Below, piece by piece: positions 114 to 30,113 of a DNA stretch of 48,552 nt. The DNA comes from a virus. The stretch is taken from positions 1 through 48,552 of IMG/VR virus record IMGVR_UViG_3300024507_000359; one strand, given 5' to 3'. Position 1 is the stretch's first letter, and every line of letters begins with the position of its first letter. The notes beneath the pieces were generated by a model. The model searched no databases. It saw only the letters and a list, made by a program, of their open reading frames with translations, and had not been told where the DNA came from. A program made the position numbers and the translations under genes.

Positions 114-638
114 GTGTTCCATTTTAATAAAAAACACTTAGAAGATGAGACCGTTCCGATGTGGGTCCTTAAAACACACGGTGAAACATTTTATGTCAAT
201 CACGTTGACGCACAAATGGCTTGGAGTACCAAAGAAACTCCTGACAACAGCCATACTAAAGGTAGCCTTAAGTTCAAAGAATGTTTGTTAACAATCAATG
301 AACAGAACGAAGCTACATTATCAACTCTTTCACTTATAGATAAGATTCGTTTACGCAACCAAAAGTTGGGTATCACTCGCATCATTTTTAACTGGGGTGG
401 TGCTATGCACAAGGCTCTGAGTAATAACGAGTTTAAACACAGTCCATTTAAGAATGTAGAAGGAGCCTGCGGCTCATCGTTTATTATCTGCGATCTACTA
501 AAGAAAGAAGAAGCTACCTTAGCAGGACTCAAGTATCAGGGTTGGCGCATACTCAAACCAAACGAAGCTTATTATCAAGCCTATGATAAAAAAGGTACAA
601 TTTGGGAAGATGAAGATATTGACATTTATGAAGAATGA
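114..638 (+). CDS. Hypothetical phage protein, start uncertain
   Basis: 174 residues from a GTG at 114 preceded by AAGGA at 105-109. I recognise no domain; a Trp-Ser-Thr-Lys-Glu-Thr stretch near residue 37 and an acidic C-terminus (Glu-Asp-Glu-Asp) are the visible marks. An ATG at 81 with a better-placed AAGGA is in the same frame but is followed by an in-frame TAG at 87-89, so either GTG is the real start or the gene carries an amber codon at position 3. The gene ends just before the tmRNA gene. Confidence 0.75.
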   Translation: MFHFNKKHLEDETVPMWVLKTHGETFYVNHVDAQMAWSTKETPDNSHTKGSLKFKECLLTINEQNEATLSTLSLIDKIRLRNQKLGITRIIFNWGGAMHKALSNNEFKHSPFKNVEGACGSSFIICDLLKKEEATLAGLKYQGWRILKPNEAYYQAYDKKGTIWEDEDIDIYEE

Positions 639-645
639 GTGTTAA

Positions 646-966
646 ATATAAGTTATTGCTGTATGAAGCAGAGAGAAAGGTATTCTGGACGCGGGTTCGA
701 CTCCCGCCTGGTCCACCAGAGAGAGCATTAGAGAACCGTTACTAAGGGCTTCGGCCGCGGCGTAGCAGACGTCATACTAGTGTTCTCCCTAATGGGCCAG
801 TCATGGTTTCGACAGGGTGATGAGTAACGAAGTGGACAGCTCGGGAATGTGAAACCCGTAGGGTTGGGGGAACTCGGCCGAAGAAGCAAAAAAAGTAAAC
901 GCAAACGATACACGTTTCGCATTAGCCGCTTAAGGCTTTGGGTAGCTATACCTCGAAACAGAAAAT
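646..966 (+). ncRNA. ssrA: tmRNA, circularly permuted (two-piece)
   Basis: The tmRNA rescues stalled ribosomes and tags the unfinished protein. The CCA-bearing half comes first: a T-arm (GCGGGTTCGACTCCCGC, 691-707), acceptor strand CTGGTCC (708-714) and ACCA (715-718). A spacer of about 75 nt follows, then the normal 5' half starting GGGCCAG (794-800), which pairs with CTGGTCC over 7 bp with one G-U. The tag reading frame (901-933) encodes ANDTRFALAA and a stop. The spacer ends are also complementary (ATTAGAGAAC near 728 and GTTCTCCCTAAT near 782), which would continue the acceptor helix in the precursor. Two-piece tmRNAs are known in alphaproteobacteria, some cyanobacteria and some betaproteobacteria; the tag is betaproteobacteria-like. 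Outer ends are approximate. Confidence 0.93.
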
Positions 967-970
967 AGTA

Positions 971-994
971 AAGGCTACTTCGGTAGCCTTTTTT
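971..994 (+). terminator. Terminator of the tmRNA gene
   Basis: An 8-bp stem AAGGCTAC/GTAGCCTT closes a TTCG tetraloop (979-982) and runs into a T stretch. The promoter of the next gene begins two bases later. Confidence 0.9.
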
Positions 995-995
995 C

Positions 996-1024
996 TTGAC
1001 AACTGATCTAAAAGCATATATAGT
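996..1024 (+). promoter_or_regulatory. Sigma-70 promoter for the outer-membrane barrel gene
   Basis: TTGACA (996-1001), 17-bp spacer, TATAGT (1019-1024). It sits directly behind the tmRNA terminator and about 95 bp before the next start codon. Confidence 0.8.
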
Positions 1025-9065: not shown

Positions 9066-9139
9066 TTTATTGAGCCTCGTGAAGTTAACTCCCTTAATGT
9101 AATGTTGTAGTAATACAACACCAAGTGAAAGGAGGACTT

Positions 9140-9703
9140 ATGGAAAAGTCATTTAGATTAGTATCCCTATTTCTAGGGTTTTTAGTAGTATTTCTTTTGG
9201 TTCAAAATATTACACAAAAGAAATTCACTATGCTTAGAGAAGCTCAGGCTTACTCGTCACAAGACGTAATGTCTATCAAAGTTCGTGAACAACAATTACA
9301 ATGTTTAGCCCAAAACATTTATCGTGAAGCAGGTTATGAGCCCTTCGAAGGTAAAGTTGCGGTTGCGCAGGTTACAATGAATAGAGTAGCCAAGGGAACA
9401 TTCGGTAACGATGTCTGCGGAGTTGTTTATCAAAAAAATGTAATTATGGAAAAAGTTGTATGCCAATTCTCATGGGCCTGCGACTCAGCCGCAAAAACAA
9501 AACCGATGAACAAAGAAGCCTATGCAGAAAGTTATGCTGTAGCTAAAAAGGTTCTTTTAGAAAATTTTAGATTAGATGTAATGAAAGATGCTCTTTATTA
9601 TCACGCTGCCTACGTTAATCCAAAATGGCCGCTTGAAAAGATCGGGCAAATTGGACAACACATTTTTTATCGTGGAAAGAAAGAGAAAGGTGAAAGTATA
9701 TGA
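9140..9703 (+). CDS. SleB-type cell-wall hydrolase with membrane anchor (endolysin candidate)
   Basis: 187 residues from the ATG behind AAAGGAGG (a GTG at 9125 is less well placed). Residues 7-25 are a hydrophobic segment, a signal anchor. From residue 54 the Hydrolase_2 (SleB) domain is clear: CLAQNIYREAGYEPFEGK with its catalytic Glu, Val-Ala-Gln-Val-Thr-Met-Asn-Arg-Val, Cys-Gln-Phe-Ser-Trp, Asp-Ala-Leu-Tyr-Tyr-His and Ile-Gly-Gln-His-Ile-Phe-Tyr-Arg at the end. Such enzymes cleave peptidoglycan glycan strands. The anchor suggests export before release. It overlaps a holin-like gene by 4 bp, consistent with a lysis pair. Confidence 0.88.
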   Translation: MEKSFRLVSLFLGFLVVFLLVQNITQKKFTMLREAQAYSSQDVMSIKVREQQLQCLAQNIYREAGYEPFEGKVAVAQVTMNRVAKGTFGNDVCGVVYQKNVIMEKVVCQFSWACDSAAKTKPMNKEAYAESYAVAKKVLLENFRLDVMKDALYYHAAYVNPKWPLEKIGQIGQHIFYRGKKEKGESI

Positions 9704-15101: not shown

Positions 15102-16994
15102 ATGTCTAAGATCATCGGTATTGACCTCGGCACCACCAATTCTTGCGTGGCTGTTATCGAGAACGGAACTTCCAAAGTTATTGAAAATTCAGAAGGTGCT
15201 CGCACTACTCCTAGTATTGTTGCCTATACACCCGACGAAATTATTGTTGGCGCTTCAGCAAAGCGTCAAGCAGTTACAAACCCAAAAAATACAGTTTATG
15301 CAGCCAAGCGTTTAATTGGACGTAAGTTCAAAGAACAGGCTGTACAAAAAGATCTTGACCTAATGCCATACGAAATCTACGAAGCCAAAAACGGTGATGC
15401 GTGGGTTAAGGCACAAGGCAAAGAATTAGCACCTCCACAAATTTCAGCAGAAGTACTTCGTAAGATGAAGAAAACTGCCGAAGATTATTTAGGCGAGCCT
15501 GTTACACAAGCAGTTATCACAGTTCCTGCTTATTTCAATGACAGTCAGCGTCAGGCAACAAAAGATGCTGGTGCTATTGCAGGTTTAGAAGTACTGCGTA
15601 TCATTAACGAACCAACAGCGGCTGCACTAGCATATGGTGTAGACAAACAAGACAAGAAAGATCGCAAGATCGCAGTCTACGACCTAGGTGGTGGTACATT
15701 TGACGTAAGTATTATCGAAATTGCAGATGTTGACGGTGACAAACAAATTGAAGTGTTGTCCACCAACGGCGACACCTTCTTGGGTGGTGAAGACTTTGAC
15801 CAACGTATTATGGATTACTTGGTTGATGAATTTAAGAAAGAACAAGGTGTTGATCTAAAGAAAGATATGCTTGCTCTACAACGTCTAAAAGAATCTGCTG
15901 AAAAAGCAAAGATTGAACTGTCTAGCTCTGCTAGCACAGATGTTAACTTGCCTTACATTACAGCAGATGCTAATGGTCCTAAGCATATGAACATTAAAAT
16001 TACTCGTGCTAAACTAGAAGCACTTGTAGAAGATTTGATTAATCGTTCATTAGCACCGTGCCGTACTGCTATGCAAGATGCAGGTGTAAGTGCCTCAGAT
16101 ATTGAGGAAGTTATCTTAGTCGGTGGTCAGACACGTATGCCTAAGGTTCAAGAAGAAGTAGAAAAGTTATTTGGCAAAGCACCACGTAAAGATGTTAACC
16201 CAGACGAAGCAGTTGCTGTCGGTGCTGCTATTCAAGGCGCTGTTCTTGGTGGCGATCGTAAAGACGTTCTATTGCTAGACGTTACTCCTCTGTCACTTGG
16301 TATTGAAACAATGGGCGGTGTGTTTACCAAGATTATTCAAAAGAACACCACAATTCCAACTAAGGGACAACAAGTATTTTCTACAGCTGAAGATAATCAG
16401 CCTGCAGTAGATATCAAAGTTTTCCAAGGTGAACGTGAACTAGTACAATATAATAAATTGCTAGGTGAATTCAAACTTGACGGCATTGCTCCTGCACGTA
16501 GAGGACAACCACAAATTGAAGTTACCTTTGACATCGATGCCAACGGCATTATGCACATCAGTGCCAAAGATAAGAACACTGGTAAAGAAAACAAAATTAC
16601 AATTAAATCTAATTCTGGTTTAAGTGAATCTGAGATTCAACAAATGATCAAAGATGCAGAGCTTAATGCAGAAGCAGATAAGAAAGCACGTGAACTCATC
16701 GATACTCGTAACTCAGCCGAAGCACAAGTACACGAAGTTAAGAAAGATCTTGAAGAGTTCCGCAGTGAATTGACAGACACAGAGATTTCAGATATTGAAA
16801 AAGCACTTGCTGATATTGAAACCGCTACAAAAGGCGACAGCGTAGAAGATATTAAATCTGCACTGGAAAAAATTGTACCGTCGATGTCAGTATTGCTACA
16901 GAAACGTCAGGCTAAGGACCAAGCTCAAGCTCAACCTCAGTCTGCAGAAGATGATGTAGTTGATGCTACCTTCACAGAGAAGAAAGCCGACTAA
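15102..16994 (+). CDS. dnaK: Chaperone DnaK (Hsp70)
   Basis: 630 residues, full length. The ATPase domain starts [15 protein letters not shown] and contains [11 protein letters not shown], Asp-Leu-Gly-Gly-Gly-Thr-Phe-Asp and Val-Gly-Gly-Gln-Thr-Arg-Met-Pro. The linker [10 protein letters not shown], the substrate domain and a helical lid follow; the tail keeps the acidic Asp-Asp-Val-Val-Asp-Ala. DnaJ and GrpE are not in the window, so host co-chaperones are presumably used. A full DnaK is unusual cargo for a phage. Codon use looks like the neighbouring phage genes. hsp20 follows with the same 17-nt leader. Confidence 0.97.
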
Positions 16995-17030
16995 TCATAA
17001 CCAGGGGTACTTTCGAGGCCCCTAATTGTT

Positions 17031-17047
17031 CTTACTTTATAAGGAGA
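17031..17047 (+). repeat. 17-nt leader shared by dnaK and hsp20
   Basis: Identical to 15080-15096 and at nearly the same distance from the ATG. Just before it, AGGGG and CCCCT (about 17003-17023) form a hairpin that could act as a weak terminator behind dnaK. Confidence 0.8.
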
Positions 17048-17052
17048 CTATT

Positions 17053-17487
17053 ATGAACAATCAATTAGCTAGATTAGATGCTCTAAACAGAGCACTTGTA
17101 GGTTTCGACACTATGTTCGATCAAATGGAACGCCGTTTTGCTAACAGCGTGTCTAATAACTATCCTCCACACAACATTTTGAAGTTGGAAGAAAATGAAT
17201 ATGCTATTCAATTAGCAGTTACTGGTTTTAGCAAGGCAGAAATTTCTGTTACTGTTGAAAACAATGTCCTAGTGGTCAAGGGCGAAAGTATGACTACAGA
17301 TTATGCTCCTGAGCAATATCTACATCGTGGACTAGCAACTCGTGATTTTGTTAAAGAGTTCCCTCTTGCAGAACATATTGAAGTTGTTGGTGCAGAAACA
17401 GAAAATGGTATGCTGACTATTAAGTTAGTTCGCAATGTTCCTGAATCTGCAAAGCCAAAAGTCATTGACATCGTTGATGTAAAGTAA
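17053..17487 (+). CDS. Small heat-shock protein Hsp20/IbpA type
   Basis: 144 residues from the ATG behind AAGGAG (upstream in-frame codons from 17026 cover the leader and are not used). The N-terminal Phe-Asp-Thr-Met-Phe-Asp-Gln-Met is IbpA-like; the alpha-crystallin domain runs from about residue 36 (Tyr-Pro-Pro-His-Asn-Ile-Leu) to 126 with Gly-Met-Leu-Thr-Ile-Lys-Leu near its end. It holds unfolding proteins for DnaK, whose gene is directly upstream. T4-like aquatic phages often carry Hsp20. Confidence 0.93.
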   Translation: MNNQLARLDALNRALVGFDTMFDQMERRFANSVSNNYPPHNILKLEENEYAIQLAVTGFSKAEISVTVENNVLVVKGESMTTDYAPEQYLHRGLATRDFVKEFPLAEHIEVVGAETENGMLTIKLVRNVPESAKPKVIDIVDVK

Positions 17488-19076: not shown

Positions 19077-20705
19077 ATGCGTTTTTTCGAAATAATTACT
19101 GAACAAGAACCTGTAAAAAAAGTGGCTACCGATGCTCCGGTCGCCGCCACCAAAGATCAAAACCCTGTAGACGCCCCTCCGCAGCAATTAAAGAAAGCTA
19201 GACCTGGAGCAAAAGGAACAGGACCTTTTGAATTTGACGGTGTAAAATATGCCAACAAAGCAGAACAACAACCAGTAGTTGAGAAAATAAAAAATATTCT
19301 TATAAAAGAATTTCCTGCTGTTAATGTTCGTAATGATGTCGAAGATCTAAACGCCGGAAAGAAAATTCCTAGTATCCGTATTTTAAACGCATTGCCTAGA
19401 GAACGTGTATTAGACATTTTATCTAAAAACGGATTAACTCTAACAAATACAAAAACTCCAATCCAGATAGTTTCTGGCACATATCAAAATTTCATTTATA
19501 CGTTTAAACAAGGTGAAATTGTCTTTACAGTTGTTATTGCAGGTAAAGGAGGACAGGAGGGCGCCGAAGGTAAATGTCAGGTAGGTATTCAAATGTTACG
19601 TCCTGAGAAATTTGGTCTTAAAGGAGTTGACTTAACTAAAACACAAATGGTAGCAATGGTTAAGAAAAATATACCTAATGTTGTTAAGTCAGATCCACAA
19701 CTACAACAAGCATTGTCTCAATTACTTGATGTAGCTATGAAACAGCGTACTAGTGTGGATCCTGAGTTAATGTCTCACATTGGACCTTGTTTAAATTTGA
19801 TTAGTCAAGATTTTGGTGAAGTTCTAACACCTATAGTTTTAGCAGATAGTGACAATGATATAATTTCTTTCTCAGCCACTTCTAACAAACCATTAATTGA
19901 CGTTGAAGTTAAAGGAACTCCAGTTGCTGTTAAAAGTTTAGGCGGCAGTGGAAATAGTTTTTCAGCAATTCGAGATATGATTGACGATTATGAAAAGTCG
20001 ATGCAAGCAGAAGATCCAGAATGGCAGGCTGGTAAGCATTTTGAAATTCTAAAAGATTTTATCAGCAAAGATGGAAAAACCAATGATAAATTAATTCGTG
20101 CTGCTCAAAAGTCTCAAGTTCCTGAAGCGGTCAAACTTAATGAAATACTCGGAACAACTCCAATGTCGTATGCTGATATGGAGGCTGCTGTCACAGCACT
20201 AGTGAAAAAATTAAGTGCTACTCCAGACGGACAGAAAAATTTATATTCGTTATATTTAAAAACCATTATGCCAGCGGCTGTTGCTGCCGGTAGAAAAAGA
20301 GGAAAGAAAGATACATTAGTTCCTGTTGGTCTTCCGGGCGATTATAAAAATTATGTAAAAGATACCGATGTTGGTGAAGAACCAAAACAGAGTACAAAGT
20401 CTGCAGGTAAAAAGAAATTTGATGCAAATTTTGTAAGAGCTGCTAGTCGCCAATTAACATATATGTTAGGTATGGGTTTTAGAAATGCTGTTGTTGAAGG
20501 CGAAGATTCTCAAGAAATGGAAAAAACTATTACCAACGTGATGACAAGAAAAAATGCCATTGCTGCAAAAATTTCAATTGCCAGCGACGGATCGATTAAT
20601 GTTATCAAGACTCCATTTAAAGATTTAAAATTTGGTTACCAATATCACGCAGGAACTGATACTGTTGATCAAAACGCTCCTGGATTTCACATTCAGTTCA
20701 CTTGA
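19077..20705 (+). CDS. Large phage protein of unknown function
   Basis: 542 residues. The start is the ATG 7 nt after a TAAATA motif; the open frame continues upstream to 19020 inside the previous gene, which is unlikely to be used. The N-terminus (MRFFEIITEQEP, then an Ala/Pro/Lys-rich stretch) resembles the short leaders of phage proteins packed into proheads. The middle has Ile-Asp-Val-Glu-Val-Lys and Gly-Gly-Ser-Gly-Asn-Ser, vaguely like a PD-(D/E)xK nuclease core, not enough to call. The C-terminal 100 residues end in Phe-His-Ile-Gln-Phe-Thr. A virion role is my guess from promoter type and N-terminus. Confidence 0.75.
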   Translation: MRFFEIITEQEPVKKVATDAPVAATKDQNPVDAPPQQLKKARPGAKGTGPFEFDGVKYANKAEQQPVVEKIKNILIKEFPAVNVRNDVEDLNAGKKIPSIRILNALPRERVLDILSKNGLTLTNTKTPIQIVSGTYQNFIYTFKQGEIVFTVVIAGKGGQEGAEGKCQVGIQMLRPEKFGLKGVDLTKTQMVAMVKKNIPNVVKSDPQLQQALSQLLDVAMKQRTSVDPELMSHIGPCLNLISQDFGEVLTPIVLADSDNDIISFSATSNKPLIDVEVKGTPVAVKSLGGSGNSFSAIRDMIDDYEKSMQAEDPEWQAGKHFEILKDFISKDGKTNDKLIRAAQKSQVPEAVKLNEILGTTPMSYADMEAAVTALVKKLSATPDGQKNLYSLYLKTIMPAAVAAGRKRGKKDTLVPVGLPGDYKNYVKDTDVGEEPKQSTKSAGKKKFDANFVRAASRQLTYMLGMGFRNAVVEGEDSQEMEKTITNVMTRKNAIAAKISIASDGSINVIKTPFKDLKFGYQYHAGTDTVDQNAPGFHIQFT

Positions 20706-20730
20706 CACCTTAATTTAATTCTGCTATAAT
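20702..20730 (+). promoter_or_regulatory. Sigma-70 promoter, extended -10
   Basis: TTGACA (20702-20707), 17-bp spacer ending TGC, TATAAT (20725-20730), 6 bp before the methyltransferase ATG. It overlaps the previous stop codon. Confidence 0.87.
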
Positions 20731-20736
20731 AGTAGT

Positions 20737-21672
20737 ATGACTACTACACTTATTCAAGGCGACTGTTTAGAAGTTGCAGATCAAATCAAAGATGACTCTG
20801 TTGATTTTCTTTTAACGGATCCACCTTACAATATCTCAGAAGGTGCTGCAAATCCTGTATGGAAAGATCCAGAAACAGGAGAAGATAAAAACACTATTCA
20901 TAATCAAAAGTTTGATGATGCATTTGATCAAAACTGGGATTCTGTCAGTCACGAAGAGTTTCTCAATCAACTAAGAAGTTGGTCTAAGATGTGGTTCAAA
21001 AAAATGCGTAAAGGTGCTGCCTTTGCAGTATTCATTTCTGATCAGTATGTTTCATATCTGTGGAAGATTATGGAAGAAGAAGGATTTGAACCTAAGCGTG
21101 TATGGAACTGGAAAAAGCCTGCCGCAGTTCCTTTCAATCGTAAAGTAAATCCTGTAAGTGGATGCGAATATATTCTTTGGGGCATCAAACCAGGTGGAAA
21201 AAGAACATTTAATTCTGACACTGATCTTTACAGTATTGTTGATAGATATGCCGTTGCTGATAAAGTAAGTAGTATTATATACAAACATACAAAAGACGGA
21301 TTTGGAACTCAATCAATTGATTCTATCTTCGCCGCCGCAAAAGCAGAAGCAGAAGAAATGATCAAAAATCGCAAAGTAGAAAACAATAAGTCTTGTGCTG
21401 TCATTCCAAACACTATCACATACAGTGGCGGACTTGGCAAAGATAAAATTCATCCTACACAAAAGCCTACAGAAATTTTAGAATATTTTATCGAACTTTG
21501 TACAAATCCAGGTGACACAGTTCTTGATACGTTTGCCGGTAGTGGTTCAACAGGTAAAGCTGCCGAGGCAACCGGTAGAAATTGTATTCTTATTGAACGT
21601 GATAAAAAGATGTTTGATAAAATGAGTGATCGTTTTAAAGAAAATATTATCTTTACTCAATTGTTTGAATAA
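20737..21672 (+). CDS. DNA methyltransferase (N6-adenine or N4-cytosine, beta class)
   Basis: 311 residues. The catalytic Asp-Pro-Pro-Tyr (residues 28-31) comes before the AdoMet-binding Phe-Ala-Gly-Ser-Gly-Ser-Thr-Gly near residue 268, the order of beta-class enzymes. His-Pro-Thr-Gln-Lys-Pro precedes the AdoMet motif as usual. No restriction enzyme is recognisable next to it, so it is probably an orphan methylase protecting phage DNA or regulating expression. It has its own promoter. Confidence 0.93.
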   Translation: MTTTLIQGDCLEVADQIKDDSVDFLLTDPPYNISEGAANPVWKDPETGEDKNTIHNQKFDDAFDQNWDSVSHEEFLNQLRSWSKMWFKKMRKGAAFAVFISDQYVSYLWKIMEEEGFEPKRVWNWKKPAAVPFNRKVNPVSGCEYILWGIKPGGKRTFNSDTDLYSIVDRYAVADKVSSIIYKHTKDGFGTQSIDSIFAAAKAEAEEMIKNRKVENNKSCAVIPNTITYSGGLGKDKIHPTQKPTEILEYFIELCTNPGDTVLDTFAGSGSTGKAAEATGRNCILIERDKKMFDKMSDRFKENIIFTQLFE

Positions 21673-21694: not shown

Positions 21695-21734
21695 AATTCG
21701 CTCTAAATACTATACGGTATTCCGGGAGCGAATT
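21695..21734 (+). promoter_or_regulatory. Late promoter inside a hairpin that masks the csgF ribosome site
   Basis: AATTCGCTC (21695-21703) is perfectly complementary to GAGCGAATT (21726-21734), which overlaps the csgF GGGAG. The late motif TAAATA (21704-21709) lies in the loop. Transcripts arriving from upstream could hide the ribosome site, while late transcripts starting in the loop lack the left arm. T4 uses this design for some late genes such as gene e. Confidence 0.65.
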
Positions 21735-21735
21735 G

Positions 21736-22221
21736 ATGAAAAAAATAATAATAGCAACAATTCTGGTGCCTTCTCTTGCCTATTCGGCAGAAATGACACA
21801 CCAGTTTAATAGTCCAGCATTTAATGGTTCTGGTTATAGTTCTCACGTTCTAACAATAAAACAGTTAGAAGATCAAGCCAAAGAAAAGAACAGAGCAGCG
21901 GCAGAAGCTCTTGAAGCTAAGGCTAAAGCAGAAGCTCAAAACACTCCAACTGCACGTTTTCTTGCTAACGTAGAAAGTCGTATCTTTTCACAGTTAGCTA
22001 AACAAATGACTGACAGTTTATTCGGCGAAGGCGCAAGCTGCTCCGGTGGTTCAGCATCTAGTCCTTGCGGTACTATTAGTAACGTAGGCGGCGAAAATGG
22101 CAGCACTATTAGCTGGTGGGTAACAACCAATAGCAGTGGTGTAAATCTTATTAACATTAGCGTAACTGGTCCTCAGGGTAGTACCAGTATGGTCATTCCA
22201 GCTAATACATTTTTCTTCTAA
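21736..22221 (+). CDS. csgF: Curli assembly factor CsgF
   Basis: 161 residues from ATG 21736 (a TTG at 21733 is less well spaced). A signal peptide ends Ala-Tyr-Ser-Ala-Glu. The mature N-terminus Met-Thr-His-Gln-Phe-Asn-Ser-Pro-Ala-Phe-Asn-Gly matches the CsgF segment that plugs into the CsgG pore (Thr-Phe-Gln-Phe-Arg-Asn-Pro-x-Phe-Gly-Gly in E. coli). An Ala/Lys/Glu helix and a C-terminal beta part follow. CsgF anchors and nucleates curli subunits at the surface. csgG follows after 11 bp. Confidence 0.88.
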   Translation: MKKIIIATILVPSLAYSAEMTHQFNSPAFNGSGYSSHVLTIKQLEDQAKEKNRAAAEALEAKAKAEAQNTPTARFLANVESRIFSQLAKQMTDSLFGEGASCSGGSASSPCGTISNVGGENGSTISWWVTTNSSGVNLINISVTGPQGSTSMVIPANTFFF

Positions 22222-22232
22222 GGAGCAAATAA

Positions 22233-23090
22233 ATGAAAAAAACAATTTTATCCTTAGCAGTAGCAAGTTTGGTATTAACTGGTTGTGCAACAAGTTCAGC
22301 AATCAAAGAAAAGATCACAGGCGAACAGTTTGAAGCACCTGTAGTTGAACAAAGTAAATTTTTCGACAAACAAGAAAATAAACTTTTACCACCTAGCAGT
22401 GGTCCTATTCCTGTAGCAGTCTACAGTTTTAGAGATCTAACAGGTCAGCGTAAGAGTGTTCCAAATATTGCTAGTTTAAGTTCGGCAGTAACCCAAGGTG
22501 GTGATGCATACTTAATCAAAGCATTACAAGACGTAGGCGATCAAAGATGGTTCACAGTCCTAGAGCGAGTAGGATTAGAGAATCTAATTAAAGAACGTCA
22601 AATGATTCGACAGATGAGAGAGCAGTATCAAGGTAAAGATGCCAAAGCATTACCGCCAATGATGTTTGCTGGCATTATCATCGAAGGTGCTATCGTTGGT
22701 TATGATTCAAACACATTAACTGGCGGTAGTGGTGTGCGTTTGCTTGGTATTGGTGCAACAACACAATATCAATCAGACACAGTAACAGTAACGTTGAGAA
22801 CAGTTAGCGTGGCAACAGGCGAAGTTTTAACAACGACTACAGTTACCAAGACGGTACTGAGCTATATGGACAAGTTCGGAGTATTGAAATTTGTTTCATC
22901 TGGTGAACAGGCGATTGAGGCTGAGACAGGCGGAAGCATTAACGAAAGCATCAACAAGGCTACAAACCTAGCAATCCAAGCCGCGGTAGTGGGAACCATC
23001 CGCGAAGGAGTGCGTAAAGGTCACTGGAGCTACAAAGAGGTAGTCCAACCAAAAATTGAACCACCGAAAGAAGTAGAAGCAACAAAGTAA
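22233..23090 (+). CDS. csgG: Curli secretion pore lipoprotein CsgG
   Basis: 285 residues, close to E. coli CsgG (277). A lipobox Leu-Thr-Gly-Cys-Ala ends the signal peptide. Pro-Val-Ala-Val-Tyr-Ser-Phe-Arg-Asp-Leu-Thr-Gly-Gln and Phe-Thr-Val-Leu-Glu-Arg-Val-Gly-Leu-Glu-Asn-Leu near the middle are typical CsgG motifs, as are the two beta-hairpin regions that build the 36-strand pore. AAGGAG precedes the ATG. CsgG forms the outer-membrane channel through which curlin subunits leave; candidate substrates are encoded next. Confidence 0.95.
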   Translation: MKKTILSLAVASLVLTGCATSSAIKEKITGEQFEAPVVEQSKFFDKQENKLLPPSSGPIPVAVYSFRDLTGQRKSVPNIASLSSAVTQGGDAYLIKALQDVGDQRWFTVLERVGLENLIKERQMIRQMREQYQGKDAKALPPMMFAGIIIEGAIVGYDSNTLTGGSGVRLLGIGATTQYQSDTVTVTLRTVSVATGEVLTTTTVTKTVLSYMDKFGVLKFVSSGEQAIEAETGGSINESINKATNLAIQAAVVGTIREGVRKGHWSYKEVVQPKIEPPKEVEATK

Positions 23091-23143
23091 TAATCATACA
23101 AAAACGGTGCATAAAAACATAACAGAGCACCAGGGAGCAGATA

Positions 23144-23968
23144 ATGATTAAAAGAAATACAGGCGCTGGTGGGTTGTCGAGAAAATTACTCACTATTCTA
23201 GTAACGGCTGCAATGCCATTATCGGGTGTCGCTGTAGCTCAGTCTTCGGCAACAGGTCCAAACAAAGTTTATATCGAGCAGGTAGGAAATAGCAATACTA
23301 TTACCATTCAGCAAGTAGGCGGAACTAATAGTGTTGGCGGTATTTTAACAGATACATTGAGCGTTGATAATACCGGTCTTACAACTCTAACTCCTACAGC
23401 AGCTAGCGATACAAACTATGGTTACATTAACGGTAGTACAAACACAGTTGCTATAACGCAAACAGGTAACGCTAACTCTAGTCAGTATAGTATTAGAGGA
23501 AATCTTAATTCGTATACTAGCACAGTATTAGGAAACAGCAATAAGACCAAGTTAAACATTGGTACTAGTTCTAGTGCTACTAATCTAAGAAATACAGTTA
23601 CAGAAACAATAACAGGTGATACTAACATTATTATTCAAGATATTATTGGTAATGATATTTCTAGCACAACAACTATTTCTGGTAATTCAAACGAAGTAAC
23701 CAAAGAGTTAAAAACTACTAACGGTGACAGCATTTTATCTATTACAGGGAATAATAACATAGTTAATTCTCAACAAATCGATGCAGGTGGCGCAAATGGC
23801 CACTATGTAAAAAATGTTATTGTTGGTAGTTACAATAGTATTACTACTCAACAACAAGGAACTAACGACACCACGATCGATTTAAAAACAACCGGTGATC
23901 ATAACACTATTACAGTACGAACAAGTAGTTCAGCTATTGTTTCACCAGTTACAGCAATCGCGAGGTAA
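23144..23968 (+). CDS. Curlin-repeat protein (CsgA/CsgB-like)
   Basis: 274 residues. A long signal peptide ends Val-Ala-Val-Ala-Gln (about residue 33). The mature part is a chain of repeats such as Val-Tyr-Ile-Glu-Gln-Val-Gly-Asn-Ser-Asn-Thr-Ile-Thr-Ile-Gln-Gln and Asn-Thr-Val-Ala-Ile-Thr-Gln-Thr-Gly-Asn-Ala-Asn, matching the Gln-x-Gly-x-x-Asn strand-loop-strand units of amyloid curlins. The repeats are less regular than in E. coli CsgA. It is probably a secreted amyloid or an adhesin subunit for the CsgG pore. Confidence 0.85.
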   Translation: MIKRNTGAGGLSRKLLTILVTAAMPLSGVAVAQSSATGPNKVYIEQVGNSNTITIQQVGGTNSVGGILTDTLSVDNTGLTTLTPTAASDTNYGYINGSTNTVAITQTGNANSSQYSIRGNLNSYTSTVLGNSNKTKLNIGTSSSATNLRNTVTETITGDTNIIIQDIIGNDISSTTTISGNSNEVTKELKTTNGDSILSITGNNNIVNSQQIDAGGANGHYVKNVIVGSYNSITTQQQGTNDTTIDLKTTGDHNTITVRTSSSAIVSPVTAIAR

Positions 23969-23971
23969 GTC

Positions 23972-25066
23972 GTGCGTAAGATACTAGGCCTTTTATGCTT
24001 GTTGGCAGCAACCAGCACAATGGCTGGTATCGGCGTGGTTGCCGATAACAAAGGTACCGCGTGTGAAATACAACGTAATAAGAACAAACTACCGGGACAG
24101 AAAGGTTCAGAAATTGAAAGTATGGATACTTATGTCACCGGTGCGTGTTCTAGCAATATTACATTCAAAGATGATACAAAATTAAAGGTCACAGAAAATA
24201 GTCGATTAGTCATTGACGACTTTGTCTATGATCCTAAAAAATCTGATGCTGGTAAACTTGCTGTTAAAGTAGGTATGGGCACAGTACGTTACGCTAGCGG
24301 TCAAATAGCAAAGAATAACCCACAACAGGTAGCTATAAACACACCTACAGCAACAGTAGCAGTACGTGGTACTGACTTTACTATGACAGTGGACGAAGCA
24401 GGACAATCATTAGTTGTTTTAGTTCCTAGTTGTAAAGATGAGAAAGATGTAAAAACCTATGAGCTTGAAGAGCAACGCTGTCGAGTAGGTAAAATCGAAG
24501 TTAGCACACAAGCAGGTACAGTAATATTAGATAAAGCATTTGAAGGCACGTATGTAACCAGCATAACAGCAGTACCTACACCACCTGTGGTAATGAACAT
24601 TATCGAAGGTAAAATTAATAACAATTTAATTTTGTCTCAGCCAAAAGAAGTCGCTGAAGCGATTAAAGAACATAAAAAAACAAAACAGGATAAAGAATTT
24701 GAAGAACTAGAAGCAGAAGCACAAAGACAAATGATGCAAAGAATTGAGCGTGCTAGAGAAGAGTTAAACAAAGCTGAAGTATTACCATTTACGTATGCAT
24801 CTGGTGAAAAAGGATGCAATCCAAGCACACAGGTTTGTGTGGCCTGGGAAAAGAATGATTCTACAGATATGCAGAGCAAAGGCAAAGGCATTGCCTACAG
24901 AACTAACGAAGATCACTATGCAGAAGTAAAAACACAAGGTTATAGTTCAAACACTACAGTAGCTATTATTCATAATGATGCATATGCTTCAACAATCATT
25001 GGAGATGGATCGCCTGGTGGAAACGTTGTTATTATTAAACAAAATACAGGTGTGTTAAGACGATGA
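23972..25066 (+). CDS. FecR-domain exported protein
   Basis: 364 residues from GTG at 23972. Signal peptide 1-19. Residues 45-150 are a FecR domain (Thr-Tyr-Val-Thr-Gly, Leu-Val-Ile-Asp-Asp-Phe-Val-Tyr-Asp-Pro, Ile-Asn-Thr-Pro-Thr-Ala-Thr-Val-Ala-Val-Arg-Gly-Thr). A coiled helix (about 235-270) and a C-terminal strand Val-Val-Ile-Ile-Lys-Gln-Asn-Thr-Gly that resembles a curlin unit follow. FecR-domain proteins beside CHASE2 cyclases are common in bacteria; here both lie in the curli cluster. It overlaps the next gene by 4 bp. Confidence 0.85.
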   Translation: MRKILGLLCLLAATSTMAGIGVVADNKGTACEIQRNKNKLPGQKGSEIESMDTYVTGACSSNITFKDDTKLKVTENSRLVIDDFVYDPKKSDAGKLAVKVGMGTVRYASGQIAKNNPQQVAINTPTATVAVRGTDFTMTVDEAGQSLVVLVPSCKDEKDVKTYELEEQRCRVGKIEVSTQAGTVILDKAFEGTYVTSITAVPTPPVVMNIIEGKINNNLILSQPKEVAEAIKEHKKTKQDKEFEELEAEAQRQMMQRIERAREELNKAEVLPFTYASGEKGCNPSTQVCVAWEKNDSTDMQSKGKGIAYRTNEDHYAEVKTQGYSSNTTVAIIHNDAYASTIIGDGSPGGNVVIIKQNTGVLRR

Positions 25067-26985
25067 AACGTATACTACAATTTTTACTTGGTTTAACAAT
25101 TTGTCTGAGTGCAAATGCACAAACGGGTTATAACGCAATTGCCACAGCCTATGTTACCACTACTATTAGTCAATATGTTGTATTCGATAGCACAATGCAA
25201 CAAGGTGGAACATATACCATGAGTGTATTGGCGCATAACGGAGGTGGACGTGCTGGACAAAGCGATACTGCTAACGTAAAAATAGAATTCTACACAGCAG
25301 GTGGAGCATTAGTAACCAGTGCCAACTCATCGTATAGTGCTAACTTACCAAACCCTAATGCAGTTTGTGGAAATCCTTGTATTGACACCAGTGTTCCTTG
25401 GTCAACATTAACTATCAGTGCAAACCTAAGTGCTGCGCAGGCTGCTACAGTTGCCTATGCTAGAGTTAGTATGTATGGTATTGACGGCAGTTATTGGGCA
25501 GGTGACTACGGTCCTTGGTATCGTGCTCCAACGTTCCAACACAATGGCGGCGGCAATAGATTGTATAACCCAGAATTTGGTCCTTACAATAACATAACAG
25601 CACAAGGTTGGACAAGTAATCCAGGTTTCGGTGCTTGTCAGGGAGCCTGGGGCGGATCAAATGCCTGTATTGTTAACAGTGACGGTATTCCTGGATCTAG
25701 CACAGTTGGACTAGTTGCTAACGCTAACGGCGGCGGTCCAAGCGCAACAGGTGGTACAACAAGTGGTACAGCAGGCGGATATAATAATACTATGACTGTG
25801 ACCAATGCTGGCACAGGAGCAACGGCCGGTAGCCCTCCTCCACCGCCATCCCCAGTTCCTACCGCAATTTACAATCAAGGTATATCAACAGGAACTTATA
25901 TTATCAATCATTATCCAACAAGTAATAACAGTCCTGCGGGGGAAGGTGCTGCAAATGCATTTGATAATAATCCTAATACCAAATATCTAAATTTTGATAA
26001 ACAAAATGCAGGTGTTACAGTTAAATTAAATGCAGGTCGGGTGGTAAATGCGTTTACCATTACAACTGCCAACGATTTTAGTGGTCGTGATCCAACTAGT
26101 TATAAACTATACGGAAGTAATGATGGTTCAACTTGGACATTAATTCAACAAGGTAATTTAGACTTAAGTGAAAATCGATTTGCAGTTAGTTCTGAAATTA
26201 CTGTAACTAACACTAACGCCTATGTGTATTATTATATTTTCTTTCCAACAACTAAAGCAGGAGAAGGATGTGGGTTAGATTGTGACTCAATGCAGATTGC
26301 AGAAATTACCTTTTACTATGATGCTAACAATACAACAACATCGACTTCTACAGGTACTGCGGTTAGTAACCCCGGAAGCCTATGTTGTGGAGGTACAGCA
26401 GCACCATTCAACGCTAATACTTCTTTCAATGCAAGGGTGCAGACTTTTCTAAATAGAACAACAGCAGACAGCCAGGTTTATATAGAACAGATTGGGAATT
26501 CAAATACAATAACTGTACAACAAACAGGTACCAAAAATAATTATGTAGATTATTTTGGAAACGGCAGTTTCAACAACGTAACTATAACTCAAAGTGGTAA
26601 TGCTTCAACTGTTGTTAATTATATCGAAGCTAATATTGGAACATCGTTATCTGCATCAAATTCAAATACAGTTAATTTAACACAGACTAGTACAGGCGGC
26701 GGTAAAGGAATGTTGATAAATGTTGCAGGATCAAATAATAGTCTAATAGTTCAACAAAAAGATTCGGGCAGTCACTATGCCGAGATTACACTAGAAGGCG
26801 GCAATAAAACTGTAAATATACTACAGCAGGGATCAGCAAATCATATGGCCAATGTAGGCCTATATGGAACCCCAACAAGTTTAACATTAACTCAAAGCGG
26901 TTCTACACAGCAATATTATACCATTACACATACCTGTGCTACAGCAGGTGGTTGCTCTGCTATTACTGTAAATCAAGGACAATAA
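25063..26985 (+). CDS. Secreted adhesin with discoidin-like domain and curlin repeats
   Basis: 640 residues. Signal peptide 1-19 (ends Ala-Asn-Ala-Gln). Residues 20-240 are a Gly/Asn/Ser-rich beta domain with paired Cys, 260-275 a Pro-rich linker, and about 285-425 an F5/8 type C (discoidin) domain: Ala-Phe-Asp-Asn-Asn-Pro-Asn-Thr-Lys-Tyr, Tyr-Lys-Leu-Tyr-Gly-Ser-Asn-Asp-Gly and Ile-Ala-Glu-Ile-Thr-Phe-Tyr. From about residue 465 curlin repeats begin with Val-Tyr-Ile-Glu-Gln-Ile-Gly-Asn-Ser-Asn-Thr-Ile-Thr-Val-Gln-Gln, nearly the same as the start of the 23144 protein. A sugar-binding head on a curlin stalk, exported by CsgG, is the simplest reading. Confidence 0.85.
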   Translation: MKRILQFLLGLTICLSANAQTGYNAIATAYVTTTISQYVVFDSTMQQGGTYTMSVLAHNGGGRAGQSDTANVKIEFYTAGGALVTSANSSYSANLPNPNAVCGNPCIDTSVPWSTLTISANLSAAQAATVAYARVSMYGIDGSYWAGDYGPWYRAPTFQHNGGGNRLYNPEFGPYNNITAQGWTSNPGFGACQGAWGGSNACIVNSDGIPGSSTVGLVANANGGGPSATGGTTSGTAGGYNNTMTVTNAGTGATAGSPPPPPSPVPTAIYNQGISTGTYIINHYPTSNNSPAGEGAANAFDNNPNTKYLNFDKQNAGVTVKLNAGRVVNAFTITTANDFSGRDPTSYKLYGSNDGSTWTLIQQGNLDLSENRFAVSSEITVTNTNAYVYYYIFFPTTKAGEGCGLDCDSMQIAEITFYYDANNTTTSTSTGTAVSNPGSLCCGGTAAPFNANTSFNARVQTFLNRTTADSQVYIEQIGNSNTITVQQTGTKNNYVDYFGNGSFNNVTITQSGNASTVVNYIEANIGTSLSASNSNTVNLTQTSTGGGKGMLINVAGSNNSLIVQQKDSGSHYAEITLEGGNKTVNILQQGSANHMANVGLYGTPTSLTLTQSGSTQQYYTITHTCATAGGCSAITVNQGQ

Positions 26986-27140
26986 TGACACAAGCAGACG
27001 AAGATTTTCTTCGTCTTCTCCATAAGCAAATGGCTGAACATCGTAAAGATCAAGGTCTTACGACTATACGTGCTTTGGAAAGACGTAAAAACGAACAACA
27101 ACAAAAACCTAACAAGAAACCTACACCCAAAAACAGATAA
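26985..27140 (+). CDS. Small basic hypothetical protein
   Basis: 51 residues from the ATG overlapping the previous stop (TAATG). The N-terminal half is helical (Glu-Asp-Phe-Leu-Arg-Leu-Leu-His-Lys-Gln) and the C-terminal half is rich in Lys, Asn, Gln and Pro. Nothing suggests export. Function unknown. Confidence 0.6.
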   Translation: MTQADEDFLRLLHKQMAEHRKDQGLTTIRALERRKNEQQQKPNKKPTPKNR

Positions 27141-27143
27141 ATA
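27138..27143 (+). promoter_or_regulatory. Late promoter motif TAAATA
   Basis: GATAAATATT overlaps the previous stop and lies 4 nt before the ATG of the small lipoprotein. Confidence 0.4.
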
Positions 27144-27147
27144 TTGA

Positions 27148-27291
27148 ATGCTTAAAAAACTATCAATATTATCGCTAGTTTTATTAATATCAGGTTGTGT
27201 GGGAATCCGTTTCTGTAACAAAGACGAATCACCTAGAACTGGCTGCAAGCCTTGGGATCCTGCAACAATATCAGGAGCAACAGCTAGATGA
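27148..27291 (+). CDS. Small lipoprotein in the curli/cyclase cluster
   Basis: 47 residues. The signal peptide (Lys-Lys, Leu/Ile/Ser core) ends in a lipobox Leu-Ile-Ser-Gly-Cys (Cys17), and the 30-residue mature part has two more Cys (23, 33). The stop overlaps the start of the cyclase gene (ATGA), so the two are coupled. It could be a partner of the periplasmic CHASE2 domain; a spanin-type lipoprotein is another option, but no partner is seen. Confidence 0.72.
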   Translation: MLKKLSILSLVLLISGCVGIRFCNKDESPRTGCKPWDPATISGATAR

Positions 27292-29333
27292 AAAAAATAT
27301 TAACCAGTCCTTGGACAGCCTTACTGACATTGGCACTTATTATAAGTATAAGAATTGCCGATCCTGTCTTTGTAGAAAGCATAAGACTACGCTACTTTGA
27401 CACACTAATTACAGCCAAAGAGCCTACAGTTAACAACATTGTAACAGTAAATATCGACGAAGAAGCACTAGGCAAATACGGGCAGTGGCCTTTACCAAGA
27501 GCCAAGTATGCAGAAATCATTCGAGATTTATACCAAAGAGGCGCAGGTGTTGTTGTACTCAACGTGCTTATGCCGGAACCGGATCGTACCGGCGGTGATG
27601 GTGCGCTAGGGCAAGCTCTAAAGCAATATCCTGTAATCTTAGGATCAGCACCTGCACAACAGACTAAGAACACTCCTAGGGTATCTGGAGCAGCAGTTCT
27701 TAATCCTGAATGGCTAGATCAAATTGTACAATATCCCGGCCTTATTGCCAATGTACCTATACTAGAACAAAATGCCGCAGGTGTAGGCATTACAAACACA
27801 CTACCGGAAGTTGACGGTGTTAATCGTCGTATGCCACTAATTGTTACAGTAGATGGCAAACTATATCCAAGTCTAAGTTTAGAAACTCTACGTGTTGCTG
27901 CCAACGACAATACCTTCCAGGTTAAGTTGTTTGAAGGTGGTGTTGAGAAAATGCGTATTCCACAGTTCGGTCCTATTAGCACAGATCCATTGGGTCGTGT
28001 ATGGATTGACTGGAGTCAAGAAGGTCGTAGCTTTAGTCTAACCAACCTTCCAAAAGATCTACACGGTGCTATTGTTATTGTAGGACCAACAGCCGCAGGT
28101 ATCGGCAATCCATTGCCCACAGCCAAAGGTGCAGTATGGCCACACGAAGTACAGGCAGCAGTTATTGGTACTATGGTCAACGGTGTTGTTATTCAACGTC
28201 CTGATTATGCAGACGGAGTTGAAATTATATCGTTAGCAGTTGCTGGTATTTTATTATTATTTTTAACAAGGTATGTTTATGTCGGTCTGGCTACAACGAT
28301 TGTGTTGGCTGTTGGCGGCGTTATTGCTAGTCGCTACGCTTTCTCTGACTTTCTATTCTTATTTGACGCTACTACGTTTACCGCTGGAACAATACTGGTC
28401 GCTTTGCACGCCTACGGTGTTAAGTTCGTCTCAGAATTCTTACAAAAGCAAGCCATAAAGAAACAGTTTGCTGGCTATTGCAGTAAAGAAGTTGTAGAGA
28501 TGCTACAAAAAGATCCGGACTTAATCAAACGTGGTGTACGTAAAGACGTATCAGTTATGTTCAGCGACCTACGTGGCTTTACTCCAATTGGTGAACACTA
28601 TGGTGATGACGTTGCCGGACTTGGCAAATATATGAACGGCTATATGGATGCTATCAGTCGTCCTATTATGGACAACAAAGGTATGGTTATTAAGTACGTA
28701 GGTGACGCAAGTATGCACATACACGGAGCACCTATTGAAGATCCTAATCACGCTCGTACTATTGTTGCTGTTGGTTTACAAATGTTAGATGCAGTTGACG
28801 AATATACCAAAATTATGGAAGCACAAGGCTTACCTCCTGCCGCAATGGGTTGGGGCTGTAATACTGGTATCGGATTTATCGGTGAAATGGGTTCAACTGA
28901 CAGACACAGTTACGACATTTTAGGTGATATGGTTTCAACAGCCGCACGACTAGAAGCACGTTGTAAAGCCTACGGTGTGTTGGCCATTATTGGCGCAGAA
29001 ACATACAACCGTACTAAAGACGACTTCTTCTACTTGTATTTGGATAACCTGCAACCAAAAGGTAAAACTGTAGCAGATGCTATCTACACAGCATTGCGTA
29101 TTAAAGGCAATGAAAACGAATACCAAAAGGCACGTGACACACACAATAAGATGCACGAATTATATAAACTCAAAAAGTTTGATGCGGCTGCTATCTTATG
29201 CGGAGAAATGAAAGGATCGTTTGACGGTCAAATGGACAAGTACTATAAGATGTGGATTGAACGTTGTGAGTTTATGAAACAACAAGACTTGGGCGATGAT
29301 TGGAACGGCGAGTTTATCGCACATGAAAAATAA
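27288..29333 (+). CDS. CHASE2-domain adenylate cyclase
   Basis: 681 residues. A membrane segment (about 5-24) leads into a periplasmic CHASE2 sensor (about 30-305), then three membrane segments (310-385) and a class III cyclase domain (about 410-600). Metal-binding Asp residues are in Phe-Ser-Asp-Leu-Arg-Gly-Phe and Tyr-Val-Gly-Asp-Ala-Ser; the Lys of Ile-Lys-Tyr-Val-Gly-Asp and the Asp of Tyr-Asp-Ile-Leu-Gly-Asp predict ATP as substrate. The usual catalytic Asn of Val-Asn-x-Ala-x-Arg is Ser550 here (Val-Ser-Thr-Ala-Ala-Arg), with Arg kept, so activity is uncertain. A phage receptor cyclase in a curli cluster is unusual; it may rewire cAMP signalling of the host. Confidence 0.93.
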   Translation: MKKILTSPWTALLTLALIISIRIADPVFVESIRLRYFDTLITAKEPTVNNIVTVNIDEEALGKYGQWPLPRAKYAEIIRDLYQRGAGVVVLNVLMPEPDRTGGDGALGQALKQYPVILGSAPAQQTKNTPRVSGAAVLNPEWLDQIVQYPGLIANVPILEQNAAGVGITNTLPEVDGVNRRMPLIVTVDGKLYPSLSLETLRVAANDNTFQVKLFEGGVEKMRIPQFGPISTDPLGRVWIDWSQEGRSFSLTNLPKDLHGAIVIVGPTAAGIGNPLPTAKGAVWPHEVQAAVIGTMVNGVVIQRPDYADGVEIISLAVAGILLLFLTRYVYVGLATTIVLAVGGVIASRYAFSDFLFLFDATTFTAGTILVALHAYGVKFVSEFLQKQAIKKQFAGYCSKEVVEMLQKDPDLIKRGVRKDVSVMFSDLRGFTPIGEHYGDDVAGLGKYMNGYMDAISRPIMDNKGMVIKYVGDASMHIHGAPIEDPNHARTIVAVGLQMLDAVDEYTKIMEAQGLPPAAMGWGCNTGIGFIGEMGSTDRHSYDILGDMVSTAARLEARCKAYGVLAIIGAETYNRTKDDFFYLYLDNLQPKGKTVADAIYTALRIKGNENEYQKARDTHNKMHELYKLKKFDAAAILCGEMKGSFDGQMDKYYKMWIERCEFMKQQDLGDDWNGEFIAHEK

Positions 29334-29369
29334 CTTTACAGAATTATTAGCAGAGTGTACAATAGATCT

Positions 29370-30113
29370 ATGGGTAAAATCATTTCTTTATTGGTATTAC
29401 TTGCCGTATTATATAGCGGGCAATCAAACGCCGCCGGTACCAAACCTGTGCTTATCACCGCTTCGTCGTGGTTAGTAGCAGACGGTAACGGTAATATCAT
29501 TGATAGTAAAAATTCTACAGAACAAAGAAGCATAGCAAGCATTACAAAATTAATGACTGCTATGGTTGTTCTTGATGCGTGGCAGGATCTTCAAGAAGTA
29601 ATAAACGGTTCAACCCGTTCCGAATTGTTACAATTAATGTTAATTAAATCAGACAATAGGGCTGCCGAAGTTCTTTGCGAAAATTATCCCGGGGGTCGTA
29701 GTTCTTGTATAACTGCTATGAATGCCAAAGCACGTACTATGGGATTATCAGAAACACATTATGCAGATGCCAGTGGATTAAACATAATGAATGTTAGCAC
29801 AGCTGAAGAGCTGGTTAAAATTGTTATAGAAGCTAGTAAGTATAATGAAATTACCAAAGCATCTAATATGGGGGAAGGTAAAGTAGAAAAGGTCAGCAAG
29901 AAAAAGAAACGTTTTTTTGTTTACCACAATACCAATCCGTTAGTTGCTACTAAAAATTTTATTGTAAGCAAAACAGGCTATATTCGTGCAAGCGGTGGCT
30001 GTATTGTTATGATGTTAGATACAGAAATAGGACGCCGTATTGTCGTCCTATTGAATAGTAAGAACACGCATACACGTATTCCCGAAGCGTACCAATTGGC
30101 TATAAGCCGTTAA
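29370..30113 (+). CDS. D-alanyl-D-alanine carboxypeptidase/endopeptidase (S11 family)
   Basis: 247 residues from ATG 29370 (a GTG at 29355 in frame is possible). Signal peptide ends Ser-Asn-Ala-Ala-Gly. Penicillin-binding motifs are all present: Ser-Ile-Thr-Lys (SxxK) near residue 58, Ser-Asp-Asn near 94 and Lys-Thr-Gly near 203. The absence of a C-terminal domain makes it PBP7-like. It would trim peptidoglycan peptides in the periplasm, as part of lysis or envelope remodelling. It ends tail-to-tail with the minus-strand cassette. Confidence 0.9.
   Translation: MGKIISLLVLLAVLYSGQSNAAGTKPVLITASSWLVADGNGNIIDSKNSTEQRSIASITKLMTAMVVLDAWQDLQEVINGSTRSELLQLMLIKSDNRAAEVLCENYPGGRSSCITAMNAKARTMGLSETHYADASGLNIMNVSTAEELVKIVIEASKYNEITKASNMGEGKVEKVSKKKKRFFVYHNTNPLVATKNFIVSKTGYIRASGGCIVMMLDTEIGRRIVVLLNSKNTHTRIPEAYQLAISR

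Follow-up and report, generated by a model that had tools for sequence, protein, structure and literature searches.

A curli-type secretion operon on a virus genome fragment, with a predicted late RNA switch and exchangeable, putatively sugar-binding heads

Introduction

Since 2020, the purpose of curli genes in phages has been debated, and proposals include a lysis pore, uptake, sibling capture, and exclusion. CsgF and CsgG were reported in pelagimyophages (PMC7029224), a lysis role was proposed for the csg genes of phage Melnitz (PMC9004378), and a 2022 study described CsgF, CsgG, CsgA/B, FecR, a second CsgA/B, and an adenylate cyclase in pelagiphages (PMC9599517). Here we describe a related locus in the IMG/VR virus record IMGVR_UViG_3300024507_000359 (positions 1-48,552); this whole 48,552-bp stretch is referred to below as the window. 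On its + strand, csgF, csgG, cur1, fecR, cur2, a 47-amino acid (aa) lipoprotein-like open reading frame (ORF), and a CHASE2 cyclase gene follow one another between 21736 and 29333. Because earlier papers report CsgF/CsgG and then the whole set including FecR and cyclase, the module is of a known kind, and the gene set itself is already known. The new parts are a predicted RNA switch in the csgF leader, swappable sugar-binding heads on the second curlin-repeat protein, a likely anchor role for the FecR protein, and a serine in place of the catalytic asparagine of the cyclase.

Results

A predicted late switch in the csgF leader

A late switch in the csgF leader is strongly supported by sequence and predicted folding. 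A leader hairpin carries the T4-type late promoter core TAAATA together with the csgF Shine-Dalgarno (SD) sequence GGGAG (approximately 21724-21728), so that, as in T4 gene e, a late promoter lies within a hairpin predicted to hide the ribosome-binding site, and the 5' arm would be absent from the late RNA. The window leader has a minimum free energy of -18.1 kcal/mol (z -3.8); when the RNA starts beyond the late promoter, this weakens to -3.3. On the identical leader of contig L004, the probability that the SD is paired was 0.99 in the long RNA versus 0.015 in the late RNA. In T4, a gene e device of this kind cuts early lysozyme synthesis 100-fold (PMC3014915).

The same arrangement recurs among related viral loci. 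A TAAATA motif precedes csgF in 51 of 60 distinct viral loci and mostly sits 25-45 nt ahead of the start; among other ORFs the figure is 103 of 718, a rough comparison in that starts were refined for csgF only. Across distinct csgF leaders, the mean energy is -12.3 kcal/mol for the long RNA and -2.0 kcal/mol for the late-start RNA (mean z -2.6). In the 28 leaders whose SD could be scored, SD pairing drops from 0.78 to 0.25, a larger change than at other genes with TAAATA (0.52 to 0.30, n = 26). The hairpin arms also covary: when 3' arms were permuted among loci, the observed pairing was never equalled in 2000 trials, and arm pairing persists while leader sequences diverge. Among the upstream hexamers of a 353-kb relative, TAAATA shows the strongest enrichment (38 genes, 11.7-fold), and it precedes genes for tail sheath, baseplate wedge, tail fibres, ribonucleotide reductase, and an HNH endonuclease; a strong hairpin accompanies it in only about 3 of 40 TAAATA genes, csgF included. 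A gp55-family late sigma factor (phrog_12791, ~1e-78) was found in three large relatives, three of the four 280-357 kb matches to the gp55 query having been profiled. The motif CTCTAAATACTATA was rejected as a repeated element inside the window, where it has 5 matches against 8 expected; what recurs across relatives is the TAAATA core. No riboswitch was found among Rfam families near the operon.

Upstream, a perfect sigma-70 promoter (Table 1) is presumed to be an early promoter whose transcripts could run into csgF, with only weak terminator-like sites in between; it makes poor translation of a long early RNA plausible. Near-perfect sigma-70 sites number 16 on the + strand of the window, compared with 0.55 expected in shuffled sequence. 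The predicted RNA switch probably keeps the gene set silent until late infection.

The curli pore and its recurrence in phages

A first-pass annotation had proposed from the DNA alone that the window encodes a phage-borne, curli-like locus of seven genes. Profile searches and ORF positions recovered all of the genes that it named, lying in order along the + strand, and its CsgG and CsgF assignments, the two components of a type VIII (curli) secretion system (T8SS), held (Table 1). The lipobox pattern is present in 86 of 86 CsgG ORFs compared, and the N-terminal CsgG-binding motif FxxPxFxG in 82 of 85 CsgF proteins, including that of the window. The curlin repeats (PF07012) score 19.0 bits in Cur1 and 17.2 bits in Cur2, just under the cut-off of 20.7 that relatives exceed; csgE was not found. 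Export of curlin-type adhesins, as initially proposed, is still the best reading. The position 21695, taken earlier as the start of the locus, belongs to the leader hairpin and not to csgF. The genes are closely spaced, with 4-nt overlaps between fecR and cur2 and between the lipoprotein ORF and the cyclase gene, and a gap of 53 nt between csgG and cur1.

Relatives of this CsgG are encoded on at least 569 IMG/VR stretches, of which the best 80 were compared. The order csgF-csgG-cur1-fecR is found in nearly all of the 80 contigs, and cur1 keeps its position in nearly all loci. Of the 48 loci whose sequence extends more than 5.5 kb past fecR, 41 have a cyclase there. A tblastn search recovered CsgG in HTVC008M and four Melnitz isolates, with 41-43% identity to the CsgG of the window, and the six-gene order is common to both of these cultured phages. 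The synteny, which the first-pass annotation had offered as a check, is far beyond chance. The 47-aa ORF is not conserved and was ruled out as part of the module: only L004, a near-identical contig, has a clear counterpart, and L032 may have another. The first-pass belief that the full set with the cyclase was new had been overtaken by the 2022 pelagiphage study (PMC9599517).

Some loci depart from this layout. In L046, L048, L053, L057, L058, and L063, cur2 is missing or a small secreted-looking ORF stands in its place, and fecR and the cyclase gene remain neighbours; in L046 and L048, the cyclase gene overlaps the end of fecR, this adjacency being kept though cur2 is absent. Extra large ORFs (~400-960 aa) occur in the operon of some phages (L006, 14495-17374; L018, L020, L038, L039, and L074), in the last five between cur2 and the cyclase gene or after cur2. 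A 1.5-kb record named as a Salmonella phage, OR851715.1, holds a csgG 40% identical to that of the window; it is probably a metagenomic fragment, and its host label is doubtful.

A bacterial counterpart was also observed. On two contigs of metagenome-assembled genomes binned to Caulobacteraceae (L088, 6083-12103; L089, 6037-12094), csgF, csgG, two further genes, fecR, and a CHASE2 cyclase gene lie amid ordinary bacterial genes. The two middle genes have no Pfam match, and one fits a loose curlin pattern. This operon runs counter to PMC9599517, which places FecR and cyclase outside bacterial T8SS operons. The case is rare, at 2 of 199 genomes in a sample of the family; csg-type FecR proteins were found only in these two known genomes among the 199, and only in the query genome among 385 of the class.

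Exchangeable heads on a curlin stem

Cur2 is built from a signal peptide, a variable N-terminal region whose residues 287-373 form an F5/8 type C (CBM32-like) domain missed by the first-pass annotation, a curlin-repeat stem, and a C-terminal cap with two cysteines; the stem and cap are conserved among relatives. The domain scores 43.8 bits against PF00754 (cut-off 28.2) and matches CBM32 structures at E values of ~1e-6 to 1e-5, and its model fits CBM32 modules whose ligands are galactose and similar sugars. The Cur2 model also displays regular 8-residue strands. Among 44 Cur2-type proteins, Pfam recognizes an F5/8C head in 16 and a PA14 head in 5.

The heads appear to have moved independently of the genes around them. 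Heads of at least 100 aa are shared in 244 pairs; in 78 of these, head identity is above that of every other operon gene, and in 25 the margin is more than 15 points. The window and L059 share 79% identity in the head and 25-51% in the remaining genes; between L030 and L059, head identity is likewise 79%, against at most 48% for any other operon gene. A head more identical than the rest of its operon indicates module exchange, typical of recognition proteins. By these comparisons, phages exchange CBM32-like or PA14 heads and keep the curlin stem, and a lectin-headed fibre with predicted sugar binding is well supported by its domains.

The FecR protein

The FecR protein comprises a signal peptide, a FecR domain at approximately residues 52-151, a variable helical linker, and a C-terminal curlin-like hairpin in which a glutamine of the strand pair (Gln357) is invariant (30/30). 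The C-terminal pattern [IVL]x[IVL]xQ occurs in all 53 viral and both csg-linked bacterial FecR proteins and in 6 of 79 other bacterial ones. Although the protein has a periplasmic FecR domain (PF04773; PupR fold), it was ruled out as a FecI/FecR-type iron regulator: it has no transmembrane segment after the signal peptide, and neither a partner sigma factor nor a TonB receptor was present among the neighbouring genes scanned. Sequence searches against solved structures gave no credible match. Its AlphaFold2 model (predicted local distance difference test (pLDDT) score 79) resembles a cell-surface anchoring domain of an adhesin, 5ix9, over 62 columns with a root-mean-square deviation of 1.1; 5ix9 is the retention module of an RTX adhesin. 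In Alphaproteobacteria, very large proteins, up to 5,595 aa long, have related FecR domains close to their N-terminus, and the two examined end in RTX repeats. It is plausible that the phage FecR protein is a periplasmic anchor for the fibre rather than an iron regulator.

The cyclase

The cyclase keeps the metal-binding residues D427 and D473, the adenylate-type specificity residues K469 and D543, and the transition-state residue R554. The transition-state asparagine expected of a class III adenylate cyclase is replaced by Ser550, so any activity may be slow or altered; this position is serine in 32 of 44 viral sequences and asparagine in 18 of 20 bacterial ones. The coupling to cyclic AMP signalling proposed in the first-pass annotation is accordingly hypothetical. 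Two types of cyclase, Ser/Asp and Asn/Thr, occupy the same slot of the operon. The CsgG of L039 is ~75% identical to that of the window, but its cyclase is only 37% identical, indicating that cyclases have been exchanged too. The constant adjacency of fecR and cyclase genes, taken with the report that Sinorhizobium meliloti CyaD1 lacking CHASE2 makes cyclic AMP constitutively (PMC5498481), suggests that CHASE2 senses the FecR protein.

Other features of the window

The methyltransferase gene upstream of csgF probably lies outside the module. The window also encodes a head protease, HNH endonucleases, 14 tRNAs, and a transfer-messenger RNA (tmRNA) that fits both the beta_tmRNA and the permuted tmRNA models of Rfam. 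The beta-type match and the tag ANDTRFALAA hint at a betaproteobacterial host. A gene for a DnaK-like protein adjoins an Hsp20 gene.

Table 1. Features of the window, with positions counted from its first nucleotide
Feature	Position	Strand	Details
Leader hairpin, 40 nt	21695-21734	+	TAAATA in 5' half, SD in 3' arm
TAAATA, T4-type late promoter core	21704-21709	+	inside leader hairpin
csgF	21736-22221	+	161 aa; PF10614 6.8e-9; longer alternative start TTG at 21733
csgG, outer-membrane curli pore lipoprotein	22233-23090	+	285 aa; PF03783 3.7e-47; lipobox LTGC
cur1, curlin-repeat fibre subunit with signal peptide	23144-23968	+	274 aa; PF07012 0.0014, 19.0 bits
fecR-domain protein	23972-25066	+	364 aa, GTG start; PF04773 9.3e-10
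cur2, modular adhesin with curlin repeats	25063-26985	+	640 aa; F5/8 type C PF00754 3.5e-11
Lipoprotein-like ORF	27148-27291	+	47 aa; role doubtful
CHASE2 and class III nucleotidyl cyclase	27288-29333	+	681 aa; PF05226 5.1e-40, PF00211 2.2e-14
Sigma-70 promoter TTGACA-17-TATAAT, extended -10	20702-20730	+	12/12 consensus matches; 5' of methyltransferase gene
DNA N6/N4-methyltransferase gene	20737-21672	+	PF01555 2.5e-37; same-strand neighbour upstream of csgF
Weak terminator-like sites	21008-21032, 21560-21578		between sigma-70 promoter and csgF
D-Ala-D-Ala carboxypeptidase-like gene	29355-30113		PF00768 1.8e-35; directly after operon
tmRNA	605-1024		tag ANDTRFALAA
Endolysin	9125-9703		phrog_938
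DnaK-like protein	15102-16994		up to ~70% identity to DnaK-annotated sequences
Hsp20 gene	17026-17487		adjoins DnaK-like gene

Discussion

We lean, with something short of conviction, towards the view that this locus is a phage type VIII (curli-type) secretion operon whose product is an anchored, sugar-binding fibre, made late on the surface of the infected cell and gluing the dying cell to its neighbours. Secretion and late timing are the well-supported parts as far as sequence can tell. Read-through RNA from the sigma-70 promoter would go untranslated, as in T4 gene e, and gp55-dependent RNA would be translated. Cur1 and Cur2 would exit via CsgG-CsgF and assemble a curlin stem bearing CBM32- or PA14-type heads. 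The FecR protein would fold in the periplasm, too bulky for the pore, with its curlin-like tail joining the fibre, so that the fibre would be held to the cell much like an RTX adhesin by its retention module. In the periplasm, CHASE2 might respond to FecR or to fibre occupancy by setting a nucleotide signal. In the least certain step, the heads would fasten the dying cell, or debris from it, to neighbouring cells and raise the chance that progeny meet a host; spreading infection is, as a purpose, the best among several guesses.

Several observations weigh against this account. Cultures infected with Melnitz showed no clumping (PMC9004378), Melnitz has no TAAATA-hairpin leader, and HTVC008M has TATAAATA with no obvious hairpin. 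No gp55 was found in the window, which is a genome fragment. The top fold match of the FecR protein is the PupR signalling domain (E 3e-4), which would fit a signalling role, and the match to 5ix9 reaches only E = 0.03. The Cur2 model is weak overall (pLDDT 66), and 7 of 48 loci are without a nearby cyclase.

If the account is right, the late-promoter hairpin sets a time of action that can be tested, exchange of the heads speaks for surface recognition, and the FecR protein trades its label of iron regulator for a physical role. The locus may also reveal how bacterial FecR-CHASE2 pairs sense adhesin export. More broadly, many large aquatic phages might build an anchored amyloid fibre at the end of infection, with exchangeable heads that tie the dying cell to new hosts and a curlin-tailed FecR protein that serves both as a split retention plug for CsgG and as the ligand of the CHASE2 cyclase. 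This generalization is possible, though we hold it as doubtful.

The strongest alternative, which we nevertheless judge unlikely, treats CsgG-CsgF without a CsgE gate as an outer-membrane channel that aids depolarisation or lysis, with the other genes as accessories, as put forward for Melnitz (PMC9004378). The lack of a detected csgE, a late promoter joined to a predicted translational switch of the kind found at the T4 lysozyme gene e, which suggests harm from early expression, and the DD-carboxypeptidase gene after the operon all fit such a pore, but it leaves CsgF, two secreted curlin-repeat proteins, and exchanged lectin heads unexplained, and the window has an endolysin of its own. Superinfection exclusion, suggested in PMC9599517, would cover the infected cell with fibres or lectin heads that keep other phages from adsorbing. 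Swappable sugar-binding heads that are predicted to be surface-exposed would suit this role, but a late promoter and a switch suppressing early translation would not suit a function needed soon after entry; we consider exclusion improbable, and the first-pass suggestion that the locus blocks other phages fits the late promoter poorly. Uptake of nutrients or cofactors, with an open CsgG channel admitting larger solutes and FecR as an iron-linked regulator (PMC7029224, PMC9599517), seems very improbable: CsgG without csgE and the presence of a FecR domain speak for it, but the secreted FecR protein lacks a membrane segment and has a curlin-like strand at its end, none of the csg genes has a transporter match, and the fibre genes are left unexplained. 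That the operon is a host chromosomal fragment wrongly assembled into a phage contig, which the similar operon on the Caulobacteraceae contigs might suggest, is ruled out for practical purposes by the identical order in HTVC008M, Melnitz, and dozens of independent viral contigs, the phage genes on both flanks, and the phage-type late promoter, as the first-pass description of the locus as phage-borne would have it.

Our preferred reading, a late, anchored, sugar-binding fibre, draws together features of several known systems. Like E. coli curli (csgBAC-csgDEFG), the phage locus has a CsgG pore, a CsgF chaperone, and curlin-repeat subunits, but it is without CsgD, CsgE, and CsgC and adds a FecR protein, a lectin-headed subunit, and a cyclase. 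A LapA-type retention module is a periplasmic domain that plugs its exporter and is cleaved by LapG under cyclic di-GMP control. The FecR domain shows some similarity in fold to such modules of RTX adhesins (5ix9), and related domains head giant RTX proteins; it differs in belonging to a separate Sec-exported protein, and no LapG or LapD was seen, no search having been aimed at them. By prediction, the csgF leader shares with T4 genes e, soc, 49, and I-TevI (PMC3014915) a late promoter within a hairpin that hides the ribosome-binding site, the SD being sequestered in the long RNA and free in the late RNA. It differs in driving a secretion operon instead of a lysis or endonuclease gene.

The pelagiphage modules (PMC9599517, also PMC7029224) have the same CsgF-CsgG-CsgA/B-FecR-CsgA/B-cyclase order and likewise no CsgC, CsgD, or CsgE. 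In the window, by contrast, no histidine kinase gene lies directly 5' of csgF, the second curlin protein bears an F5/8C (CBM32-like) head, and there is a late-promoter hairpin switch, of which we found no mention in PMC9599517. Melnitz genes 99-104 (MZ577098) share the gene order, with CsgG 41% and cyclase 48% identical and serine for the catalytic asparagine of the cyclase; besides the missing hairpin leader, Melnitz differs in a Cur2 without a lectin head. Its GenBank record annotates two curlin-repeat proteins, although the Melnitz paper calls csgA/csgB missing. HTVC008M gp014-gp019 (NC_020484) also follow the gene order, with a cyclase that differs from that of the window in retaining the asparagine and having serine at the specificity position. 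Its Cur2, like that of the window, carries an N-terminal sugar-binding-type domain, in this case a PA14 head (2.7e-6) in place of F5/8C.

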